From the NCBI RefSeq assembly GCF_964355755.1, contig NC_092673.1, forward strand, positions 4,221,001-4,285,000: DNA of 64,000 nt, given 5' to 3'. Source of the DNA: Antedon mediterranea (lineage: Eukaryota; Echinodermata; Crinoidea; Comatulida; Antedonidae). The translations under genes were made by a program, and so were the position numbers. The notes under the pieces are model-generated. The model did no database searches and was not told where the DNA came from. It saw only the letters and a list, made by a program, of their open reading frames with translations. This document shows, one piece after another, positions 3,436 through 35,200 of the stretch (positions are counted from its first letter, which is position 1; each line of letters starts with the position of its first letter).

Positions 3436-4637
3436 TTACGATTTGGAGGTAGATTTTTCTTTTCTTTTTCGTTTTTTTTTACTCTCTTGAACCGGTTCCT
3501 CATCGATGATAAGCGCCCCTAATTCTTCGTCATCCGACGTAGAATTATGAACGCCGTTTCCTGTCCAGGATTCATCGGATTTTTTCACCTTTTCTTTATT
3601 TTTTTCACATTCATCAGTCTTTTTGGATGGTTTGTTACCTTGTAACAGATTTTGAATTTTTTCCTCCTTCAACTTTTCTTTCTCTTTTTTCGAACGTTTT
3701 CCTTTTTCAGGTTTACTAACAGTTTTTGTTTCTTTCACCAATTTTTCCTCAACATGCTTTTCTTTCTTCTCTTTTTTTTTCTTTCCAGATGGTTTTTCAG
3801 TTTCATTCTCATTTTTATCTTTTTTTGTTTCATCTCCGTTAGTAACTTCAGACGTTTCTTCTTCTTTACCTATTACATCTTTATTTTCTTCAGCTGTTTT
3901 CATTTTTTTGGCTGGTGGTACACCTTCTCCAACCGATTTTCTATTTTTGGGATCAACCTTTTTTTTGGAGAGTTCTTGCACAACTTCATCATCAGAATGC
4001 TCTATACATACTGTTACACCTTCAACAACTTTGCTTTTATTTTCCTTGTGGGTATCACAATAGGAATTGGGACAAATTACACACAGTAACTTGGCAACCT
4101 TTCCACATTCATCACAATGATGCCATGGACAATCCCATTTCCCTGGTGGGGAGAAATAAAATAGAGTTAGAGGTTGAAAGCAAGAATAATATGACATCAG
4201 TTGACTATGCAGGTAAAATACTAAAGTGCTGTCCACACTATCAAACTAGTTTGACAAAAAAAGTGTGATGTGCCTAAATATGGTAGTGATATGCTTAAAT
4301 ATGGCAGACAACATCAATCATGTCCTTTTATGGGCAAATCACATAAAGTTTGATAGTACAGACAGAGCTTAAGAGTAGATATTACCCAATTAATACAAAC
4401 TAAATCATTTCAAATAATATGGCTAGAATGTTCCTTACCGTAAGGCTTTTTCTCCAGTTTTAAACAGGTCAAATGGTAAGATTTCAGACACGTTTTTCGA
4501 TCACACATTATTAAAGCACCTCCCTCACCACATCGGAAGCAGAAGTCTTCATGTTTCACTTCTAGTTTGCGTTTCTTTCTTTTCTTTTTATCCTTCGCTT
4601 TCTTCAACTTTTCTTCAGTCGCTTCAGCTGCTGCGGT
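3436..4637 (-). CDS. NSD: NSD exons 14-15: PHD5, C5HCH and lysine-rich tail
   Basis: Exons 4637-4439 and 4142-3436. PHD5: [19 protein letters not shown] with [10 protein letters not shown]5[31 protein letters not shown]. The last about 170 residues are Lys/Glu-rich with no fold and end KEKSTSKS before TAA at 3438-3436. PHD5-C5HCH is the C-terminal reader pair of NSD proteins. Confidence 0.93.
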
Positions 4638-7600
4638 CTGTAAATAGTTAAGTTTAAAATAAAATTATTCTTGTTAGGGTGTGGTGTTTAAAAGTAAAAC
4701 CAAATTCTGGAGTTTTCACCAGCCACTGGACCGCATTCAGAACATTAAGCTCTGTCTACACTATCAAACTTTGTGACAAAAAATGTGATGTGCCCATATA
4801 TGGACATGATGATGTCATGTCACTACCATATTTGGGCACATTACACTAGTTTGATAGTGTAGACAGAGCTTTAGGAACTGTCAACATACCTTAGCACGTA
4901 CACCTATAAATCCACTACAGTTGTCAGCTCCACATTCACACTTTTTCTTTTCATTGCCTAAACAATCTAGATTGTAGTTGAAATTGAGTTCAGAACCTGA
5001 GGAGAAAAACAGTATTAATTTTTTTTTTTTTTATTAGTTAATGTCATTGTAATATTTTTTTATTTGTAAAATATTGTATATAAGATTTATTTTTTTGTAC
5101 AGCGCTTTGGTCTTGGGAAAACGCTCTATAAATAACTATAATAATACTAATTAGCTATCATCTATCATATTCATCTAGGTTGAAATAAAAATGATTTAAT
5201 TTCTAAAAAATTGACAAAATGATCAAATCATACAAACAATTTAGTTAATTACTAATGATAATTTATTTTAATTAAACTAAATAAAAACATTAACCACAAT
5301 CTAAATCTCTGTCTACACTATTAAACTAGTTTGACAAAAACAAAGGTGTGATGTGCCAAATTATGTGATATTTCCAAATATGGTAGTGATATGACATCAT
5401 AATGTCCATATATTGGCACAGCACATTTTTTGTCACAAAGTTTGATAGTGTAGACAGAGCTTTATATCATACCTGCTTTTATATCTTTAACAGCAAACAG
5501 ACCCACTCTAATGTCGCCATTAACCGTCCACTTCTGCGTCTCACAGTTCGGCCAACAACAGTGGTTCATGAAGCGTGACATGTTTCCTTTGGGCCCTGCA
5601 TCGATCGTACGATCTTTATCCAAAGTGAGAAAGTAGAAATTGGAGATGTTATCTTCATGGTCTTTCCTGATTCGGCGATGACATTCTTCATCATCAACAA
5701 GTTCCCCTACATACTCGTTAACAAAATCACCCTGAAAGAATATAAAATAATGATATTCAAAACAAACACAAAAATAACCAAAATAGTGTGCAAGGTACAT
5801 ACAGTGGAACTACCATTAAGGGGAGACCTTTGGGATCGATCAAAGTGTCCCCATTTAAGGCTTAGGGAGTGGAGTTGAAGGAGTCGGTTTAAAACCCTGC
5901 CACTAGGTCAGGATTGAACTCCGAACCTTAGGATTGGACGGCAAGCATGTTAACCACCAAGCTACAGCCCTACAACTTACTTTCTTTATATCAACCTTTG
6001 TCATCAGCCCCCAGCCTCTTGGGCCGGTTTTAAATGGAATAGAGTCGGGATACTGCCTCTTTTGAAAGCGTTGATTTTGGCAATTTTCACCTGCCGGACA
6101 AACCGTTGGATGGCATTCCACCTGTAACATGCGGTTTAGGCAATCACTTCCATCACCACAAGGGTTTGTCATGTTGGGCTTACACTCACAAGGCTGACAC
6201 TGCGATATGTCAAATGCTGGCATGGCTTTTATTACATTGCCTACTGGTTTATTAACCTATGAAAAACAAAAATATGCACAGAATCTTTTATACTGTAAAT
6301 GAAAATAACATTAATTTAATACATTTTTAATGATTTTATTATTAAAAAGATTTTGAGACCTTTTCGACTTCAAGAATGGTTTTAGGAGAGTACCCGGTGT
6401 GTCTATATGTAAGTAAAAAGCAGTATCTTGCAGGATAAAATAGCATTCAGAGTTTGTATTGAGAAACAGTATATCTTACCTTAATGTACTTGAATGGAGC
6501 AGGCTTCTTGTCATTCTCCTGCTTGTCTTTTGCTACACGCTTTTCTTTTATTGCTTTCCACTCTTTAAAATTAGCGGTGGCTTCAACAAGTGCTGTAAAA
6601 GAATGAATATTTATGATGCATGTCAGAGGTCTCTAGGCTACTTGGCACCCACTCTAGGCTACTTGGCACCCACTCTAGGCTCCTTGCCACCCACTCTAGG
6701 CTCCTTGCCACCAACTCTAGGCTACTTGCCACCCACTCTAGGCTACTTGCCACCCACTTTAGGCTACTTGCCACCACCTCTAGGCTACTTGCCACCACCT
6801 CTAGGCTACTTGCCACCCACTCTAGGCTCCTTGCCACCAACTCTAGGCTACTTGCCACCCACTCTAGGCTACTTGCCACCAGCTTTAGGCTACTTGCCAC
6901 CACCTCTAGGCTACTTGCCACCACCTCTAGGCTACTTGCCACCCACTCTAGGCTACTTGCCACCCACTCTAGGCTACTTGCCACCAACTCTAGTCTACTT
7001 GCCACCCACTCTAGGCTACTTGCCACCCACTCTAGGCTACTTGCCACCCACTCTAGGTTACTTGCCACCCACTCTAGGCTACTTGCCACCCACTCTAGGC
7101 TACTTGCCACCCACTCTAGGCTACTTGCCACCCACTCTAGGCTACTTGCCACCCACTCTAGGCTACTTGCCACCCACTCTAGGCTACTTGCCATCCACTC
7201 TAGGCTACTTGCCACCCACTCTAGGCTACTTGCCACCCACTCTAGGCTACTTGCCACCCACTCTAGGCTACTTGCCACCCACTCTAGGTTACTTGCCACC
7301 CACTCTAGGCTACTTGCCACCCACTCTAGGCTACTTGCCATCCACTCTAGGCTACTTGCCACCCACTCTAGGCTACTTGCCATCCACTCTAGGCTACTTA
7401 ATACAGTTGGAATATTCATTTGCAGGGACCATGAATATGCATTAGTACTTGTGCTAAGGCAAAGTGCCAATTATGCGTACATACCTTGTTTAAACACTGC
7501 AGCAATACCCTTGGAAGTCGTACTATCTCTACTGCCTTTATCGCCTTCTTGAAATGCAAAAACGCGAGCCTGATGCGTCCAAAAGTAGTCATTAGAACCA

Positions 7601-19002: not shown

Positions 19003-19146
19003 TAAGCTCTGTCTACACTATCAAACAATGTGACAAAAAAATGTGATGTGCCCATATATGGACATGATGATGTCATATCACAACCATATTTGGGCACATC
19101 ACACTTTTTTTGTCAAATTAGTTTGATAGTGTAGACACAGTGCTTA
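19003..19146. mobile_element. MITE family A copy 6
   Basis: Near-complete copy: TAAGCTCTGTCTACACTATC ... GATAGTGTAGACACAGTGCTTAA. It may lie in the 3' UTR of the F-box gene, where it would form a long RNA hairpin. Confidence 0.88.
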
Positions 19147-21352: not shown

Positions 21353-21394
21353 GTTTGACCACGGACCTATACATATATAGGTCCGTGGTTTGAC
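21353..21394. mobile_element. 28-bp palindrome with 7-bp target duplication at the GPCR stop codon
   Basis: Core 21360-21387 has 12-base arms CACGGACCTATA and its reverse complement with a 4-base centre. It is flanked by perfect direct repeats GTTTGAC at 21353-21359 and 21388-21394. A related palindrome with its own different 7-bp duplication is at 34335-34380. This looks like insertion of a minimal, nearly all-TIR element. Confidence 0.85.
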
Positions 21395-22575
21395 TGAGCA
21401 GCATTCGTGCCATTTCCTTTACTTTTCGATGAGTTAACACCACTACTTTCTTTAACATTTGACGTCACTGCCTTCGGAGCTTCTTTTGTGCGAAACATCG
21501 ACTTCAATTCCGATCTAAATTTTGCGTTTAGCCAACAGTAAAGAAAAGGGTTAACGGTAATACCAATCATGGCAAAATAATACAAAATCAAGTACATCGC
21601 ATTGTCGTGAAGTGACTCGTAAAAAAGCACCAGAATTACGTAGACATTTAGCGGGAACCATGTTACACCAAATACAACCACCACCAAGATGAGCATGGTT
21701 GTGGTTCTGCGATGGCATTTGTCTTTTATAGTCTGCTGTGATGCCGTCAAGTGTTCAATTGTCATTCTACCGCGTAAAGCTAAAGCGATCAGACGATTCA
21801 TGGTGATTATGATAATCAAAGGGATTACATATCGCAAGATTATCGAAGACAAGACGAAAATTCTTCTGTAAAGGTCGCTTGGATCTGGATAAGATGCGAT
21901 GCATTTGTAGCCGGATTGTAATAGAGTTTCCCATTGGTGTAACCTTCTGAAAACTGCGTTTGGAAGTGATAGAATGAGCGAAAACCACCAGATAATGCAA
22001 CTGATCACAAATGCAGAGTTGACATCCATCCTTGGGCGAAGAGGATGTACAATAACCTGATGTCGATCCACAGCGATAGCGGTTAATGTCAAGCTGGACA
22101 CAAATGTAGAAACTTGAATAATATAATCTGTTATGTAACACATGAATCGACCGTACGGCCAAGCGTCCGATAGATTGCGCGTCAGCACCAGAGGGATGTT
22201 AAACAACGTCATGATGATATCAGAAAATGCTTGGTTCGCTAGGAAGAAGTTGGTGACGTTGCGGATTTTACTACTTCTGGTCATCACGACGCACACCAGA
22301 GTGTTGCCGACTAAAGAGATGACTACGAGTATAATATAAGCGACGTTGATGACAACTCTGACGTCATTTCTGTACGCCAGTATTAGAGTTTCCTGATTAA
22401 TTTCGTCCTTATAATTTGCCAAGAGGTCGTCGAATTCTGCATCTACTAGGTGGCCATCAAAGCTGGCGGAAGAAATTTCTTCGGTGGTATTTTTGTCAGA
22501 ATGAATGTCGTCTCCATCGATCTGGTTGATGTTAGAGTCGAGACCGAAGAAACTGTTCCAGAAAATTGACATCAT
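21367..22575 (-). CDS. GPR83-like rhodopsin-family neuropeptide receptor, single exon, 402 aa
   Basis: Seven membrane segments. TM1 has GNTLVC, TM2 FFLANQAFSDII, TM3 starts after the disulphide Cys (RFMCYITDYIIQ) and ends AVDRHQVIVHPL, TM4 IIWWFSLILSLP, loop-2 Cys in KCIASYPDPSDLY, TM5 RYVIPLIIII, TM6 LVVVVFGVTWFPLNVYVIL, TM7 NPFLYCWLN. The phrases PDPSDLYRR, EHLTASQQTIKDK and WFPLNVYVIL resemble vertebrate GPR83, within the NPY-receptor-like group. DRY is DRH and CWxP is TWFP. The N-terminus is acidic and has no signal peptide. Two ATGs in tandem (22575 and 22572) are possible starts; a splice acceptor just upstream at about 22590 suggests a non-coding first exon. The final residues HGPIYV and the stop are supplied by the palindromic insertion. 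NPY/RYamide-type receptor is the alternative call. Confidence 0.85.
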   Translation of the reverse strand: MMSIFWNSFFGLDSNINQIDGDDIHSDKNTTEEISSASFDGHLVDAEFDDLLANYKDEINQETLILAYRNDVRVVINVAYIILVVISLVGNTLVCVVMTRSSKIRNVTNFFLANQAFSDIIMTLFNIPLVLTRNLSDAWPYGRFMCYITDYIIQVSTFVSSLTLTAIAVDRHQVIVHPLRPRMDVNSAFVISCIIWWFSLILSLPNAVFRRLHQWETLLQSGYKCIASYPDPSDLYRRIFVLSSIILRYVIPLIIIITMNRLIALALRGRMTIEHLTASQQTIKDKCHRRTTTMLILVVVVFGVTWFPLNVYVILVLFYESLHDNAMYLILYYFAMIGITVNPFLYCWLNAKFRSELKSMFRTKEAPKAVTSNVKESSGVNSSKSKGNGTNAAQSNHGPIYV

Positions 22576-23745: not shown

Positions 23746-24061
23746 TATTATATAACACCTATATAAATTCCTGTCATTTGATTGGACGAATGTGGGTCAC
23801 ATGGCGTGCAATAGTACGCACTATTCAACGATCGTTAAATAGTACTTTTTGAAACATTTTTGTGTACTAAAAAAAAACGTCTAGATGTTATATAAAACAA
23901 ATAATGAATGTTTTGTATTCGTGTAATGGTACAAATAATGGCACTTGGTGAATGATGAAAGGTTATATCAACTCGGCTTTGCCTCGTTGATATAACCTTT
24001 CATCATTCACCTCGTGCCATTATTTGTACCATTGCACTCATAAACATTCATTATTTGTATA
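23746..24061 (+). mobile_element. 316-bp foldback element, copy 1
   Basis: Matches 32511-32826 in reverse orientation nearly base for base. The right half (about 23893-24061) is a long palindrome: ACAAATAATGGCAC..., GGTGAATGATGAAAGGTTAT and the complement, with a short CGGCTTTGCC-like turn. The left half is non-palindromic (CCTATATAAATTCCTGTCAT onward). No coding potential. Confidence 0.85.
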
Positions 24062-24934
24062 CTAGTTGGTAGAGTCCAGGTGGCCCCAAATTCCCCAATC
24101 TTTTGAAATTCAGGCTACGCTTCAGAGATTCATCCGCCTTAGTGATGGACTAATTTATATTATTTTAATCGCAGTTTCTATGCATTACATTCATAAATAC
24201 AACAAAACACGATTTATAACGCTTTTTTTTCACTTACTTACCATTTCCTTCCCTGGTAGTAAAATCACCTACATCTTTACTGCAGACCGCAGTGAATTAA
24301 ATACATATTTACCTATTCTAATATTTAATCTCATTTTGCGAGAGCAGGTAGGGCCATACACAATAAAATAAGTGAAACAACAGTTACAAATTCATTATAT
24401 AATTTTAGTGAAACATAGGGACAGCAGACGGTCGAACAGATTGACTACCATTTACTAAATAGGTGAACTTTATGATGATTTGATATAGATTAGGTGGAGG
24501 GTTTCAACTTTATAATGGGTTAATAGATGCTCCATTAAATAAAATTAATCGTGATTATTTCAACACTTATTGATACGATTCATCATACTTAAAATAACAG
24601 AAAAAATCACAGCCAACCACTTCTTCTAAAATAACATTATCGTAGAATATAAACATAGAGAAGAGGTTGAGCCAAAAGTGTAAGCTAAACAACCCCGACG
24701 ACGATGAATAATCTTTCGTGGTAACTAACATTTATGCCACTTTTATTTTGTTATTATAGGCCTAAGCCTATGTATATATTTTTTTACTATATTTAATGAG
24801 GGTGATCTATCCAGCAATTGCTGATCATTAGGGACCCTCAGGGGTTCACAAGACAAACATTATACACAAGATGCTTACATAATCAAAGTTTTTGGAAGTG
24901 GAGTTGTAATTTTGTCTTTAGAAAAAATCCTGAC

Positions 24935-25012
24935 ATGTGACGGGACTTGAACCCAGGACCCTTAGAATGGCAGCCAAGCATCATAACCACCAAGCCAAAA
25001 CTCCACTCCGGA
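24935..25012 (-). mobile_element. tRNA-derived SINE remnant
   Basis: Minus strand: TGGCTTGGTGGTTATGATGC (A-box) and GGGTTCAAGTCCC (B-box), same plan as 5880-5972. No acceptor stem pairs. Confidence 0.65.
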
Positions 25013-25070
25013 CAACTCCACATTGCAGAAACAGCGGAGAAATTGCTTCAAAATCCGAGCTGATATTTCT

Positions 25071-25170
25071 TAAAGCCTGTTCACACCTACGCACCCTAAA
25101 ACGTAAACGATACCCGGACTCCTGTGTTTTGCCATTCATTCATATAACGAACGCCGCAGGTGTGAACACC
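25071..25170. mobile_element. Small inverted-repeat element (GTTCACACCT ends)
   Basis: GTTCACACCTACG at 25079 and CGCAGGTGTGAAC ending at 25167 are inverted; preceded by TAAAGCCT as in other local MITEs. Single copy in the window, so the family call is tentative. Confidence 0.45.
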
Positions 25171-25899
25171 TAGTCATTACCATACTGCTTGCCAGTCTTA
25201 CGCCGTAAACGTACCCTCGCATACCTTCCCCAACTAAACATATGCATGTCTCCACGATATTCCCAATGTATTTATCATTAAATTAAATAAAAGAAGTTTT
25301 ATAATAAAATTGGGCTATGGTGCACTTAACTTGTAGAGGCTTAGGTATTACTGTACATTTAAAGGTTTTTCGAAAAGTGTATCTGTATAAAAAAAGGTAT
25401 GTATCAACTTAAATCTGCGAAGTTGAAAATACGAAATTGGTAAATACTAAATTTGAACGATTTATAAACAATATAAACAAACAAAGGTAACCATACGACC
25501 CGAAGGGTGAATACCTGATCAACCTTTTCGAGGTAATCAATAGTGCGCGTGCGTTAAATGACAGTAGAGATTGATTAAGTTTATCTAATGAACTCAGACA
25601 AAGTAAACGGAATCTCAAACAATATAAACATAGTTTATTTTGGAAGTTGTGATTGCATTGTTTGTCAGGCTAAAGAAGAAAAATCAAATAACACTTTACG
25701 TTAATATTCTTGTCATCACTTTCCAACGCGTGACTCATTACTACATTGTGGAGTTGCTACAGTGAAACGCAATAAGGAATTAAGGTGTATACTAATTAAT
25801 TAGTGTTGTCTGGATATACCATCTTCTATTCAGTTTTTATTGGGAAAAACAATTATGTTAGGTCTACCTGCAAAACCCAATCTCCATTCCAATTGCATT

Positions 25900-26074
25900 C
25901 AATCTACACTACCAAACTTTATGTGACAAAAAAATGCGATGTGGCCATGGACACGATGATGTCATATCACTACCATATTTGGGAATATCACTACCATACC
26001 ATATTTTGACACATCACACTTTTTTCTGGAGGGAATATATTTTCCTCTATGGTTTGGTAGTGTAAACAGAGCAT
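25900..26074. mobile_element. MITE family A copy 7
   Basis: Copy with drifted ends (AATCTACACTACCAAACTTT ... GGTTTGGTAGTGTAAACAGA) and a duplicated internal TATCACTACCATA segment. Confidence 0.8.
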
Positions 26075-26564
26075 TCCATATATCTTTTTTTTTAATTACA
26101 TGTTTGTAATCCACGTCCGAATTATTTGACAGCATCTCATTTAGGTGTAAACGGAGAATTAATGTTTCATCTTGATCGTCTCATTTTTTTCGCGCTCGCC
26201 ATAGATAAATAATTTTTTTTTCTACCGTGTATCGGTAAAGTTATTGTCGTAGTATAAACAGGCCTTTAGAGAGAATTTGTTCGTTATTAGATAGTTTGTT
26301 CTTTGCTAATATACCATATACCATCCGTAATCAATTGTAATGGTAGATTTTTCCCAAGCAGAGAGGTATTACCTCCCTGTCCCAAGTCTGTATTTATTGT
26401 CTTTTTTTAGTCCACCAGTCAACGTTTTATACGCAAGTATTTATATGTATGAAACGCCATGTGTCGAAATATTTATCCTTTTACTAATATTAAGTCAAAC
26501 TCTGTGTGGAACCCAGACTAGGTAAGTGGGGGTAGTGGGGTTTTGGAGGAACGCTATCTTTCCT

Positions 26565-26714
26565 TAAGCTTGGTTCCCACCAGGAAGCAACGCAAGAACG
26601 TAAGCGCAGCGCAAGCAGCGAGTTTTGTCCAATCACAACGCGATGGATCATCGAACTGTCGCTTGCCATTGGTCATCTTGCTTGCGTTGTGTCTAAGTGG
26701 GAACCAAGCTTTAT
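26565..26714. mobile_element. MITE family D copy 1 (AAGCTTGGTTCCCAC ends)
   Basis: Terminal inverted repeats TAAGCTTGGTTCCCACC and GTGGGAACCAAGCTTTA; inner GC-rich subrepeats of CGCAAGCA type. A second copy lies at 52563-52725. Confidence 0.8.
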
Positions 26715-27315
26715 AGTACAAAATATAATACGATAGATTACGGATTTTACTGATAATGACAATGTACATTGGTATACTTTATTCCACATCTTAACTATTT
26801 AGAAAGCAATATTAATACAGTAATTGTGATCTAATGCAATCAAATTCAGCTTTACAGTTCATTTTAGCCACCAAAATGTGACTCATCTTACTATCAAGTT
26901 ACATTACGATTGGGTCGCAATGTATACATAACATGTTCAATGTACAAAATAACAAGAACATGCTAAAATAGATATGTTATTTTTATAAATACTAATTTCA
27001 ACCACGCTTGTTGTATATAAGTGTTATTGTTCAAGGTTCAAATACATAAAAATGTTAATATACACCTATATATTTTATAATACAAAACAATTCACAACAA
27101 TTTATTTATATCAAAATAAAAATCAATCTTATATGTAAGTATGTGAACATTGCTTGTCTTGATTTGAATGGATACATTAAAAAAAAAAACGTTTATTACA
27201 AAAATACAATGACTTTTAATATTTCAGGTTTTAAGTCGATCCTCTATTTAACCATTGGTTACGGCGTAGGCCTACTTGGGCCCAATTTGTGGTTAAATAT
27301 CCAAACCATTGTGTA

Positions 27316-27663
27316 CAGTAGAACATATCCGTTAGGACACCTTTTTAAGTTGACACTTTCTATAAACAAACAATAGCTGTTTTAACACTACGACCAACTC
27401 ATATATTCCTGAGGGAATTTTGTCGGGTCCCTTAATACAGGTTCTACCTAGGCAATCTAACAACAGGACACTGAGCTTGCCTTGCCAAGGTAGGATTTCG
27501 TAACAATCCTTTGATCTTATGTCTGGCTGCGACAAATACCTTCAGTACCTGTACTACATTTTCCGTGGCGCGCGGTGTCTGTTAAGGGGCGTGGAACTGA
27601 TCGTATCGCAACCATACATAAACCCTTTGATCTCCAGTTGTTCAGATTGCCCTGGTTCTACTG
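27316..27663. mobile_element. Tigger-like fragment 2
   Basis: Ends CAGTAGAAC and its complement GTTCTACTG, flanked by TA. Interior CCGTTAGGACACC and GGGTCCCTTAATACAGGTTC resemble the GTCCCCTTAAT motifs of Tigger-type elements. No transposase frame. Confidence 0.6.
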
Positions 27664-28236
27664 TATTGAGATTTTTAAACCACTTTATGTTTCAGTTTTT
27701 CTACAAATAGAACCAAGTTATCAAGTATTTTTAAATTTATACTAGGTCACACACATGGAAACTAACAAACAAGGACCATAGATTTCTGCTCTAAAATGTT
27801 AAAATAAATTCTGTATTTATCAAGTGCAAATTAAAAATACATAGGTTATCAAAATGTTTACACTAACCATCGTCTGAAATTTGTGCCCATTAGAGAATAA
27901 AAGGTAAAACTGTGTGTGAAGAAGTTTGGCTGGCATGTGTTAGTTTCAAATTTGTATCTTTTCAATTCCAATGAGAGGTCGTATTGAAAAAACTTTAAAA
28001 AGGTATCAGTTTATATTTCAATCACCAAGTTATAATATTATATATACAACAAATAAATATATTAATAAAAGTATATTGGTCAAGCTATGGAAATCCCTTG
28101 TTGTTTAAATGATTATTACCCCAATCCCCACCCCACCCCCAATCATTTTAAAATTTGTATAATCAGATGTCATCTGTTTTAAAAATTTGATTTCTTTGGT
28201 TTATATAAACATTCATTGAAATACAGATATCCAATA

Positions 28237-28238
<2 letters not shown>

Positions 28239-28273
<35 letters not shown>

Positions 28274-28274
28274 A
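28239..28274. repeat. (ATT)n microsatellite
   Basis: Uninterrupted ATT repeat followed by AATAATAC. Confidence 0.9.
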
Positions 28275-29002
28275 ATACAAATATTATATTAAATCATTTT
28301 TTTTATTTAACTAACACAGTTTTAGAAAATAATTAAAGCATGTTTATATAAAATGACAACCGAAGGGCAGAAAACCAATATAAAATAATTCCCCCAAAAA
28401 ACTTTGTTATTTACAACTTGTTATTTTACAAAGATATTCAGTTTAAAATATAACCATTATATCTTATAATGTATCTTTAAACATTACAATACAGTATATA
28501 TATTTGTTTCTAAAAAATATGTTTTAAAACATACAAGGGTATTGTGTGTATCACTACAACAACAAAATAACAACCCACTGGTGCAGGGCTATTGGATATA
28601 AGTGGTATACACCCATATTTGTTCGTCCTTTTAAATAAATTTTGTGTACAATAAATGTCATTGTAGTGCCAATGTTTTTTATCCAACCCTCGTATCTTTA
28701 TATGGGATAACATAAATGACCTCATAACATATTATCAAACCTATAAACATATACTGTATATTACAATCAGGTGTACATCTCTAATCTTTATATAATTTAC
28801 ACTAGGCCTTGTGTTACACTTCTGTATGTATCAGAAGTGTACCACTCACCAAACCTATACATGTACATTATTATGTAGCATGGGTGTTATAAAAAATGTT
28901 ATCAATAATTAATATTTAAACTGATAAAATATGTACAAAAACTATGATCAGTCAATGTTTATAAACATGTTTTTTATACTTCTTTGCGTCTTCATAATTC
29001 TT

Positions 29003-32000
29003 TCACGAACCGCCCCCTAAACATAACTGACACTTGCAGTCTCGCACAATCCTTACTGGGCGTTCGTAAACAGTCCCGTTCGTGCACGCGAACTCAATGT
29101 TTTTTATCCGCGTTCTCCTCGGCCGACAGCAGGATGCGTCGTTGAGACCGCACTCACCGTTGCACGTGGCGTGAGTGATTTCTTTACGACTTCTACAGAC
29201 CTCTTCGTCGTTGACATCAGTGTCTACAAGATGTGATGTAACAACTTCCTTTCCACAAGTAGTTCCTAATTGGGTAGAAAAATGTAACTTGATTAAGTGG
29301 GGTATTTTAAAACCAGAGTAAAAAAATGAAGAAAGGAAATGCACAATAATATGAAGGAGGAGGCAGACCGGACGGGCATTCCGACAGGTAAATTTTGTTT
29401 ATCAAGAGGTACTGTTAAAAAAAATGCAAGCTTAAATAAGAAGGTAGTGGAGGACCAAACTTAAAGCCTTGGCTTAATGCATCCTCCTCACACAATTGTA
29501 TTATAAATTTATGTTTCTGTTCATATTGTATTGTATTGTATTGTATTGTGTGAAACAATAAACTTAAACTTAAGCCTTGTCTACACTATCAAACTTTATG
29601 CTACAAAAAATATGTGCCCATATATGGACATGATGATGTCATATCACTACCATATTTAAGCATATCACTACCATATTTTTTTTCAAACAAGTTTCATAGT
29701 GTAGACAAAGCTTTAGAACACACATGTTTTTTGTCGCTTTTCCCCTTGAACAGTCAACCCAAAAAATCTCCCTCTGAACTAAAAAAAAAACTGCTTACTT
29801 GTATTACAAAATCTTCCCATCCAACCATCTTGACAATCACACTGCGATTCTGCATCACTGGTCTCGCGACAGAATCCATTCACACATTGGTGATCCATAC
29901 ACGGATTTGGCTTATCATGTGACGGACATCCTTTGATTACGTTATGGTTGACATCACTCGTGGACACATCGTAATAGACATCATTTATGGTAAACTTAGT
30001 AAAACAGCCTGTGAAAATGTCAACATTGAAATTAGTTTTGGGCATGTGGAAAAGATTGAGAAAGAAAACTAAACACTATTATAACAGTATGCTTGAGTGA
30101 ATCCTTGAATTTGATTGGTTAATTATGTACCATGTGTATGAAAAAAAATAAATAAATAAATTCAAGTCAAGTACAAATTTACAATAATTGTAAGCCTCTT
30201 TTTTAATGGTTCTACCACCAAAACTATGGTTTAAGAGGGCCTTCAACCTGTGCCAATATATTATTTTGGTTTGCGGTGCCCCTGTATTAACCCCTCAGCC
30301 ACTCGCTCACAAACCCTCGAGATTAAACAACAAGAACTTCAACTTACCTGAAAAGCTTGTGGCATTTCTAACATGAACTTGTTGCTGTGCATTCTTGACC
30401 TCTGCTGCTGGCAGTCCACCAATGTAGGTCTTCTCTTCAATGTCAAAATGCACATTCACTCCATGACTCTTTGACATCTGCCAATCGTCATTGTCCACTC
30501 TCAATGAAATGTTCCTCTGGGACACCTTTATGTTCAACTCGTGGAACTGTCCGTCGTTCAATTTCTCAGGACTGAACATCGTGATAACAGGATAGTTACC
30601 GATATCGTAACTGACACGTATTCTACCACGGAACAGCTCAACCGCGATGTGTTCAATTTTTCCGTGGTATAGTATCACTCCATATTCCTGCATTGTTGCA
30701 AAAACTGCTTGGATGTTGAGCGTTTCACTCGTGTCAATATCCGTAAACTGCAAGTATGCGCCGCGGTGCTGGAATTTCATACTTGTAATGATTTCGCATT
30801 TCTCGCCACGGAAGCCCGGTAAGCAACTACAACTGGTAGAGGCTGTTGCGCTGATGTACAAACACTGGGCATTGTTTTGACATTCATGGACTTCGCACGG
30901 ACTGGTACTTGCATAGATGATTGGTGGTATTTCACAATATTCACCTTCAAAACCAACAGGACAGCGGCACATGTACTGCATACCAACCTCTAGACAGTCG
31001 CCACCATTAACGCAAGGACGAGATCGACAATCCCGGTAGGTATCAGTACAATTTTGGCCTCTGAAACCAGCTGGACATATGCACCTATAAAAAATGGCAA
31101 TATTTTCAATTAATTAAAACACTACACATTTAATATATATAAGGCTTAAATTAATGTATATCTTAATTGTAAATGCAAGTCCATCAATAATCTAATTCAT
31201 TTTTAATAAAAAGTTTAAATACCTATAAAATGAGCCTAGGTCTTGACATATTCCATTATTTCTACATGGATTTATACCAGCTTCACACAAATCAATGTCC
31301 AATTCACAGAAATCACCTGTAAAAACAAAATAAAAATTAATATAAAAATAAATGTTATGAAATATTATCATCAACTTTTAGTAGGTAGGCTGCCTGCGTA
31401 GATTTGGGGTGAGTTGTAATCCTTTGTTTGTTGCCCAAACTGCTAATTGAAAATAAGTTTGTTCGGACCCGTTTGAAAGTGGGTACTAATATATAATCTG
31501 CAATTATATATAGTGTTCTATACTGGAAATATTCATTCTTCCAATCACTAGATGACACAGAAACTGGATGTGGTTAAAATTCACTTTACTTTTTCACTCG
31601 ATTCACTAACAATTCTATCACAAACCTTTGTATCCATGTTGACAATTACAAGTGTAGCCGCTTATCTCGTCAATCGAGCATGATGCGTTATTCTGGCAGC
31701 GATGGTTTCGGCAATCCATGATGAGTTCACAAGTAATACCACCAAAACCTGTTGGGCACTCACAACTACATAATAAAATAAGAATAACATTATTAGATGG
31801 TTGATATATACATTTTTGTTATGTTCATTAAGCTCTGTCAAAACTTTATGTGGTATGCCCATATATGGACTTGATTATGTCATTTCACTACCATGTTTAA
31901 GCATATCACTACCATATTTGGGCAAATCAAACTTTTTTTGTCGAACTAGTTTGAAAGTGTAGACAAAGATTTAGTTTTTATCTGTTTCTTTTACTGAAGT

Positions 32001-32240
32001 ATTTTGTCTAAAATATCAAAACATACCTGAATCCAGCTTTCTGGTCGACACAAGTTCCCATATTGTGACATGGTAAAGATGCACATTCATTTATTTCGGC
32101 TTCACAATTACGTCCTTCGAACCCAGGGGCACACTGACACGTATACTGTCCTATGGCGTCACTAACGCACATCCCATCATTCTCACAAGGGTCAGATAAA
32201 CATGGGTTACACTTATCTTCACCGCTTCCTTCTTGGCCTT
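29003..32240 (-). CDS. SLIT: Slit EGF repeats, laminin-G and cystine knot, six exons
   Basis: Exons 32240-32027 (EGF1-2), 31765-31626 (EGF3), 31316-31223 (EGF4 start), 31084-30348 (EGF4 end to laminin-G), 30008-29799 (laminin-G end [17 protein letters not shown] and EGF7 [15 protein letters not shown]) and 29265-29003 (knot). The knot holds [20 protein letters not shown] and DCKCQLC and ends GGGS. Six EGFs precede laminin-G and only one follows it, as in Drosophila; vertebrates have three after it. Before EGF6 the family cleavage region reads [12 protein letters not shown]. Confidence 0.95.
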
Positions 32241-35200
32241 CTGTTAAACAAAATATTTTTCAAAATGAATAATTTAAATTCTAATCAATGCAATTCATAT
32301 TTATTAGTACATGTACTGTGTTAACATTTTTATACATTAATAAGAATTTTGTTAGCAAACAATCTCAATAGACTCGAGTATAGTTCCTGGGCCATAGTTA
32401 CGAACATTGGCGAAAATTGGGAAGTTGGATTATACTGGGTTATGCATTAGCAATGGATTAACCAAAGTTATGCCGTAATTTAGTTTAGTTTCATATAAGG
32501 TACTGTACAGTATACAAATAATGAATGTTTATGAGTGCAATGGTACAAATAATGGCACGAGGTGAATGATGAAAGGTTATATCAACGAGGCAAAGCCGAG
32601 TTGATATAACCTTTCATCATTCACCAAGTGCCATTATTTGTACCATTACACGAATACAAAACATTCATTATTTGTTTTATATAACATCTAGACGTTTTTT
32701 TTTCGTACACAAAAATGTTTCAAAAAGTACTATTTAACGATCGTTGAATAGTGCGTACTATTGCACGCCATGTGACCCACATTTGTCCAATCAAATGACA
32801 GGAATTTATATAGGTGTTATATAATATATAATATTCAATTTTGGTCAACCTAACATGAAATATACTGAAAGTACGACGTAGGTTTGTTGGTTGGTCTAGT
32901 AGTAGGATTTTAATCCGAGGATAGAATCAAGACCAACCAAGCTTGTATTTGATGGCTACGTTTGAAATTGTTACACATATTCAGGATTTCTACATTGTAT
33001 ATTATATATATTTACTTACCGAAACAAATAAACTTCCTAGAGGGTGCTGTTAGTATTGGCTTGTATTTGAGGTCATATGGACCGTCGCATCTAGCTGTTC
33101 CTGGCTCACGGTAACTGTTTTTAACCCATTCTGATAACCATCTCAATTTACAGTCACAGTACAGAGGATTAGAACTAAGTGCTCTGCAACAAGAAATTTG
33201 CCTAGATACTTATAATATGTTACCTTTTTTCCTAATATTTTTCATAGACAATTATATAACAATTCAATCGAGTACTTTACTCCGCAATTCTTGTACTTAC
33301 AGATGAGTAAGCGATGTCATATCTTTGAACGCACCATCTGGGATGTGTGAAATTTCATTGCCATGAAGCGATCTAGAAATTGAAAATGTATATATTATTA
33401 TGCATGTAAGTATAAACCAGACGACAACATATAATCACAAGGGCTTGATACAAATGCAAAGAAGACTAGGGATATTTCTATATTAGTACAGACACCCTTC
33501 ACATAATTATTGTAAAGCTCTGTCAAACTTTATGTGACAAACAAGGCCAACAGCCATAAGTCGCGTGCTAAAACGCATAGTGATTGATACTGGACCGACA
33601 GACCGACCGACCGACCGACATAGTGAACTATAAGAGTCGCGTCTACGACCATATTTGGGTATTCACACTTTTTTTTTTGTCAAACTAGTAAATGTACTTG
33701 AATGTAGCAAAAAGGTGACTGTCTCTGTGGTACTATGAGATTAGATTATTATAAGCATACCAGTACTTAAAAGAAAATTAATAAAAAACTAGCAAATAAG
33801 CAATCTGAAATGATATGTATAATTTAAAGTTTATATTTTATTTAGTATTTCCTCTTTTACCTCTCTCGTGACAATTGCATTGCATAAATATTGTACACAT
33901 CATCCAAAAAAAACCAACTATTTTAAACATAGGTTTCAGCAATGTTTGGCTAAAATAAAAATCAGTGATAATACAAGTGGTCTTTCATAAATAGAGGAAT
34001 TTTAGAAGAGTAACAAAGGTTTGTGAATTTTACTTACAAAAGTCTTAGTGTAGTCAGTCCATTAAAAGCGCCCTTAGGAACACAGCTAACTTTGTTGAAA
34101 CTTAAAATTCTGAAATAATATAAAAGAATATATGCTTAAAAGTACATAAGACATATTACTAAATTACTTGTACCAGGATAAAGAAAATGTCACTTACATT
34201 GTTGAGAGACTGGTCATGTTGGCAAAAGCATTTTCTGGGATATATGTAATGAAGTTGTTACTCAAGTCCCTAGAAAAAAAAGTTTAAATATAAACACTGC
34301 CCTCAATAAGACTACATAACTCAATGAAAAGTTTATCTAACCATGGACCTATAAATTAGATTATAGGTCCATGATCTAACTACTGTACACCCATTATGTA
34401 TAACAAAATTACCATGGGGTTGAAGAAAGAGCGGGTGTATGCAGAAGTTAATTTAAATGGTAACGGTATGGGTATTATAAATAATGGGTCCTTCCCCCTG
34501 ATATGCCTTCTATTCACCAGACATGTATCAAAAACCTTCTTTTTCATAACAAATTAAACACAATCCCTTTTACTTATGACACACACCAATTTTCAGTGTC
34601 AAAATCATTGTTTATAATTATATATAATTTGGATTTCATTCCAGACTGCTTTCATTGCTAAAACATAATTGACATTGGAGTTGGTAATATCTATCTAACA
34701 CTGTTTAGTGTCATTCAATAATTAATAGTTTTAAAAAAATAAAAAACATAGTCAAGGCAAAAATTTATATAAATAATATCCTATGGCATTATCCTACATT
34801 TATACTGTATCATAACATAATATGCTAAACAATAGTTCATAGAGCCAATGCGATATACAGAGCGATATTGTTGTACAATTTAATTAGTTTTTATTACATT
34901 TTTTTGTACAAATGTTTTAGGCCTACTTGGCAATATTTTTTGTATTTCGATGTTATTTAAGGGGCAACTGACTCTTTGAGTTATAGTAATTGTTTTGCTT
35001 TAGTTGCCCCTGACCATTGTGCTTTGTTTCTGTTCTGTATCTGTTTATTGGCCGAATAAATAAATGAAATGAAAATGAAACATCTTTTTTATTGTTATGT
35101 AAGTAAATTGTACAGTACTTTTGTAAACATTTTTAGCCATGCAGCTACTTGTTTTAAAGCTGAATAAATAAATAAAATAGTGAATCATGATATATGAACA

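Follow-up and report, generated by a model that had tools for sequence, protein, structure and literature searches.

The coding end of a neuropeptide receptor gene in Antedon very probably lies in an excision scar of a P-element-type transposon

Introduction

The cuts made by P-element transposase are staggered: one DNA strand is broken at the tip of the transposon, its partner 17 nt into the 31-bp inverted repeat (PMC7776569; PMC10983969). In the fly, sequenced excision repairs of P{wa} carry the 8-bp duplication together with at most 17 nt of each CATG-tipped end, the donor having 17-nt tails; the two sides meet through microhomologies of 1-3 nt, bluntly or across templated filler, and one-sided products occur as well (PMC2895639). 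Galileo, a member of the same superfamily, makes 7-bp duplications with the consensus GTAGTAC (PMC2775673). Searches of open-access papers yielded descriptions of laboratory P footprints and of non-insect P-like transposons, and no account of a genome-wide set of scars.

Here we describe a short palindrome at the 3′ end of a receptor gene of the crinoid Antedon mediterranea, located in a window of 64,000 nucleotides (contig NC_092673.1, positions 4,221,001 to 4,285,000), and compare it with related sites across the 354 Mb genome. In our assessment the palindrome is very probably a scar, left when a P-element-type DNA transposon was excised and the broken ends were joined.

Results

The receptor gene and its palindrome

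The locus contains the following features.

21367..22575, minus strand: rhodopsin-family neuropeptide GPCR of 402 aa in a single open frame (Pfam 7tm_1, E 3.8e-52)
21353..21359, no strand: target-site duplication, copy 1, GTTTGAC (direct sequence; the 7-bp length is common to the family)
21360..21387, no strand: probable 28-bp excision scar, CACGGACCTATACAT-A-TATAGGTCCGTG (by comparison with the family end CATGGACCTATAMATTAG)
21388..21394, no strand: target-site duplication, copy 2, GTTTGAC (direct sequence)

The nearest relatives of the receptor with solved structures are NPY2R, which is the best PDB match (E 9.3e-46), and the prolactin-releasing-peptide (PrRP) receptor. A direct read of the window gives 21353-21394 as GTTTGAC, CACGGACCTATACATATATAGGTCCGTG and GTTTGAC, and with its flanks the palindrome runs GACT GTTTGAC CACGGACCTATA CATA TATAGGTCCGTG GTTTGAC TGAG. 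A sequence-only reading of this DNA had described a 28-bp palindromic insert with 12-base arms between perfect GTTTGAC repeats, and the sequence agrees with it in detail. The arms are indeed 12 bp long; an inverted-repeat search reports one pair with 14-nt arms here because the AC and GT of the flanking repeats pair as well. Set against CATGGACCTATAMATTAG, the 28 bp decompose into 15 nt of one transposon end, a junction of 1 nt and 12 nt of the other end. The end consensus of the family is CATGGACCTATAMATTA(G), and the receptor scar carries the CACGG variant of it.

With respect to the protein, the open frame ends in ...AAQSNHGPIYV, and its last six residues and stop are supplied by the scar through the codons CAC GGA CCT ATA TAT GTA TAG. 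This translation bears out the sequence-only reading, in which the element contributed H-G-P-I-Y-V and TAG. Joining the flanks around one GTTTGAC yields a 401-aa protein ending in ...AAQSNSQAMN, which reproduces exactly the ancestral tail (SQAMN) that had been proposed. The seven-helix domain stops near residue 346 and the altered residues lie at the very end of the 402 aa. The exchange of five residues (SQAMN) for six (HGPIYV) was most likely nearly neutral. The hydrophobic-x-hydrophobic form of the new IYV tail might, speculatively, make it a putative PDZ ligand.

As a control for chance, the window was shuffled 100 times under a first-order Markov model, and perfect palindromes with arms of at least 12 and a spacer of up to 6 were counted. 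The shuffled windows held a mean of 0.08 such palindromes each, and in none of the 100 shuffles was one flanked by a 7-bp repeat. There are four in the actual window, and two of these (21358-21389 and 34342-34373) do lie between 7-bp repeats. The second of these belongs to the same family as the receptor scar.

34335..34341, no strand: target-site duplication of the second scar, copy 1, ATCTAAC
34342..34373, no strand: second probable scar, CATGGACCTATAAATTAGATTATAGGTCCATG, composed of 18 nt + 1 + 13 nt
34374..34380, no strand: target-site duplication of the second scar, copy 2

Two further inverted repeats were seen in the window. A perfect 24-bp palindrome, GCAGGGAGTTGTACAACTCCCTGC, lies at 403-426 without a flanking duplication, and an exact 16-nt inverted repeat, TAAATAGTACTTTTTG, spans 23836-32736 with its copies 8.9 kb apart and each adjoining ACGATCGT; this pair may represent repeats in opposite orientation.

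A genome-wide family with 7-bp duplications

The core GGACCTATA-(0-20)-TATAGGTCC occurs at 156 sites in the genome, compared with 0 for a reversed control. The arm CATGGACCTATAA has 634 exact copies (control 12), many of which are degenerate palindromes or passengers within larger repeats. Taken as a whole, the genome most likely contains several hundred excision scars of this end family. Among 34 copies with unique flanks, 22 have an exact 7-bp flanking repeat, and repeats of 3-6 or 8-12 bp were found in none. This answers a question that the sequence-only reading had raised, namely whether related palindromes elsewhere carry 7-bp duplications.

An enlarged sample comprises 74 sites, selected so that the two copies of the duplication differ at no more than one position and gathered through exact arm matches, which biases it toward well-preserved ends. 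The duplication is perfect at 40 of these 74 sites, and about half carry one difference. In oriented copies, the duplicated target follows the motif GTYNRAC, with T at position 2 in 73/80 and A at position 6 in 73/80.

Empty sites were sought by aligning the joined flanks of scar loci against the window and the collected loci in order to find scar-free paralogues. One scar (L140) lies within a dispersed repeat, copies of which, both in locus L006 and in the window, are scar-free and contain just one ATCAAAC-like target.

4229..4302, plus strand: scar-free copy of this dispersed repeat with a single ATCAAAC (empty-site control)
5297..5360, plus strand: second scar-free copy
19074..19141, minus strand: third scar-free copy

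Scar-free paralogues also exist for L010, L027 and L028, making four scars in total. Given the uniform 7-bp repeats and these paralogous empty sites, the sites of the family did undergo insertion with duplication of a 7-bp target. At the receptor locus itself we infer such an insertion from the perfect GTTTGAC repeat. The proposal of an insertion with 7-bp target duplication is thus backed by the repeat length of the family and by the empty sites of four other insertions.

Ends and junctions of the scars

The ends of the scars match CATGGACCTATAMATTA(G) up to position 17-18 at most, and there is no consensus beyond. Position 18 is G in 12/31 arms, only modestly above chance (p 0.013), and the retained length may be either 17 or 18 nt. 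The 74 sites hold 64 distinct sequences without a common centre, and sharing of internal sequence between the ends, by which MITE copies are recognized, was not found among them.

Several sites with good duplications (L149, L107, L045, L103, L101 and L106) are one-armed, having one end or one end plus 3 nt. Specifically, the retained end measures exactly 18 nt in L149 and 16-17 nt in L107, and in L045 and L103 it measures 17 nt and is accompanied by a 3-nt remnant. Where one form recurs at different targets, the join is always by overlap (microhomology) or blunt, whereas each of the 30 insert-bearing types, among which are some simply mutated scars, occurs only once (Fisher p = 0.0003; the seven recurrent types include a paralogous pair, without which p is about 0.001 by hand calculation). 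The longer inserts resemble the ends and flanks more than shuffles do (mean 6.8 vs 5.0), which suggests the resemblance that templated filler would give, in a set into which mutated arms are mixed.

Two unlinked loci, L115 and L157, have in common 31 nt of end sequence, CATGGASCTATAAATTAGAAGGACTMACAAC, and are the only two such in a genome search. This length equals that of the P-element inverted repeat, a likeness that is suggestive only; the 31 nt are a possible remnant of the full inverted repeat of the parent.

Scars in repeats, arrays and other end families

One scar, GTTCAAT..ATTCAAT, lies inside a dispersed repeat of >3 kb (L015, L019, L020, L021, L114). It is present in 40/40 scored copies and was therefore inserted before the repeat spread, which carried it along as a passenger. 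Tandem arrays with a scar-bearing unit that repeats at about 81-93 bp, or at multiples of this, were seen at L137 (G000:C8:28476646-28482629), L138 (G000:C1:41168807-41169634) and L154 (G000:C3:4223778-4224876), those on C1 and C8 being close to the ends of their chromosomes. It appears that young satellites have scars as their seeds or among their components.

Other scar families have the same CATGGA tip and 7-bp duplications, namely CATGGAGCTATAMATT (L154, L155, L049, L144), CATGGAGGAAATATA (L010, L011, L012, L014) and CATGGAGTAAAGAAT (L025). Scars of two families are stacked at one target in the order CTTGTAC, scar, CTTGTAC, scar, CTTGTAC (L010 1459-1531, L014 1463-1531 and L025 1471-1535), and the single 7-mer that they share indicates repeated insertion at one site. 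A palindrome at L104 (G000:C1:21784328-21784366) combines one CATGGACC end with one CATGGAGC end without a duplication and is perhaps a hybrid-end event between two families.

Transposases and the search for a parent

P-type transposases are encoded in the genome, with 35 matches to the RNase H domain PF21787 (best E 4.6e-39; controls 0/14), several of them in long open frames. Three copies on C1, C3 and C8 (L054, L094 and L095) are ~99% identical over at least 5 kb, contain a 794-aa frame with a P-type RNase H domain and look recently copied.

No intact transposon with the scar ends appeared in lists of exact 18-mer ends, arranged by preceding base, which cover nearly all genome occurrences and which diverged or rare parents could escape. 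The only inward pair at transposon distance (C4:2997597/3002393) was rejected because one of its ends is a scar with a different flank, and a 3.2-kb end pair on C7 proved to be two separate scars when read. At the P-type transposase loci that were read, no scar-family ends lie within about 2.5 kb; the L057/L060 transposase family, whose borders can be defined, lacks CATG ends. The other end family that was checked, CATGGAGCTATAMATT, with 65 exact hits against 0 in the control, likewise gave no inward pairs at transposon distance. The failure to find an intact end pair indicates that the scar-making element is lost, rare or diverged.

Discussion

Excision scar or mobile palindrome

The sequence-only reading had taken the palindrome to be mobile in itself. 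A 25-45-bp palindrome could be a minimal two-end transposon, or micro-MITE, moved in trans, and the inverted ends, 7-bp duplications, empty sites and copies numbering in the hundreds all suit such a unit. This part of the earlier proposal was not supported, and we consider it quite improbable. Nearly every site has its own junction, recurrence is limited to microhomology and blunt joins, and intact duplications surround sites with one end or with 3 nt of the other. P-type ends also require internal binding sites (10 bp) that lie further in, and DNA of ~30 bp would hardly be flexible enough for its two ends to be paired. From a transposing unit one would expect the reverse, with common centres and two complete ends. 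The capped arms, the variable and one-sided joins and the centres with almost no shared internal sequence therefore argue for excision of a larger transposon rather than for a transposing 28-bp unit. Chance or local palindrome formation (slippage or hairpin templating) without any insertion has little beyond the existence of such processes to recommend it; the absence of palindromes with flanking 7-bp repeats from the 100 shuffles, the single repeat length genome-wide and the empty sites refute it for the family and make it exceedingly improbable here.

Two other possibilities accept excision and differ in its source or timing. The scars might stem from a different superfamily whose members likewise duplicate 7 bp and cut deep inside their ends, which would be compatible with a transposase type that is deduced rather than read from a recovered parent. 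This we regard as unlikely, as the 7-bp GTNNNAC-type target, the CATG tips, the 17-18-nt tail and the 31-nt end of L115/L157 together fit the P type, and we know of no superfamily other than P with so long a stagger. Somatic excision only, in which the sequenced tissue lost elements that are still intact in the germ line, would account for many scars and for the missing parents. Against it, one scar has been copied passively within a >3 kb repeat to at least 40 places, others lie in tandem arrays and about half of the sampled duplications differ at one base. The copies in the repeat and the arrays indicate that the scars are inherited and old, and exclusively somatic loss is accordingly very improbable.

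Excision by a P-element-type transposase, the reading that we favour, draws on both the footprints and their ends. The family shows duplications round a short remnant, empty sites and joins that are capped, variable or one-sided, as excision footprints do. The 7-bp duplications with the target motif GTYNRAC resemble those of the P superfamily (7-8 bp; compare GTAGTAC), and the retained tails of at most 17-18 nt would point, indirectly, to a staggered cut of ~17 nt. On these grounds we infer that the parent belonged to the P superfamily.

A proposed course of events

A transposon whose inverted ends read 5′-CATGGACCTATAMATTA(G).. would have entered near the 3′ end of the receptor coding region, duplicating GTTTGAC. 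Its transposase would then have made staggered cuts, one flush with the tip of the transposon and one on the opposite strand 17-18 nt further in, leaving each broken chromosome end with a single-stranded tail of at most 17-18 nt of transposon end, a step for which the length cap and P biochemistry argue. Host end joining through short microhomologies and small fillers, as the observed junction spectrum suggests, could have sealed the tails, here as 15 nt + 1 nt + 12 nt. The product would be an inert scar with an in-frame stop by chance, as a result of which, judging from the joined flanks, SQAMN would have been replaced by HGPIYV.

Implications

Each scar would record the separate repair of a germ-line break whose initial ends are known, and one animal genome holds several hundred of them. 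Such scars let the joining of a wild lineage (microhomology, blunt or filler) be measured without experiments, and they could date a vanished transposon and reveal altered protein ends. They also caution that short palindromes with target duplications are not necessarily mobile elements. A broader picture, to which we give slightly less than even credence, is of a lineage of the P superfamily, with targets of 7 bp, that is now gone or almost gone from this genome and is known only by several hundred inherited scars, one of them translated as the end of a receptor, the scars forming a natural archive of germ-line end joining.

Comparison with known systems

The closest likeness in form is to the P{wa} excision footprints (PMC2895639), in which a duplication, a CATG-tipped end of at most 17 nt, microhomology or filler, a mirror tail and a second duplication follow one another, and which include one-sided products. 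Those footprints have 8-bp duplications, a known parent and an origin in laboratory events, whereas the Antedon scars have 7-bp duplications, no parent that was found and the character of inherited genome-wide fossils; the end sequence after CATG also differs between the Drosophila P element and the Antedon scars. Galileo (PMC2775673) likewise has 7-bp duplications whose second base is T and whose sixth is A, but it consists of long elements with long inverted ends, whereas only short end remnants are seen here. Zebrafish Pdre/THAP9 (PMC10983969; PMC7776569) similarly places P-type transposases and transposons outside insects, with the difference that its ends are 13 bp, its duplications 8 bp and intact as well as internally deleted copies are present. 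MITEs and bacterial REP/REPIN palindromes are, like the scars, short, numerous, palindromic and interspersed, but their copies have internal sequence in common and the scars do not. The Antedon scars are objects of a familiar kind, unusual in their number and in where they are found.
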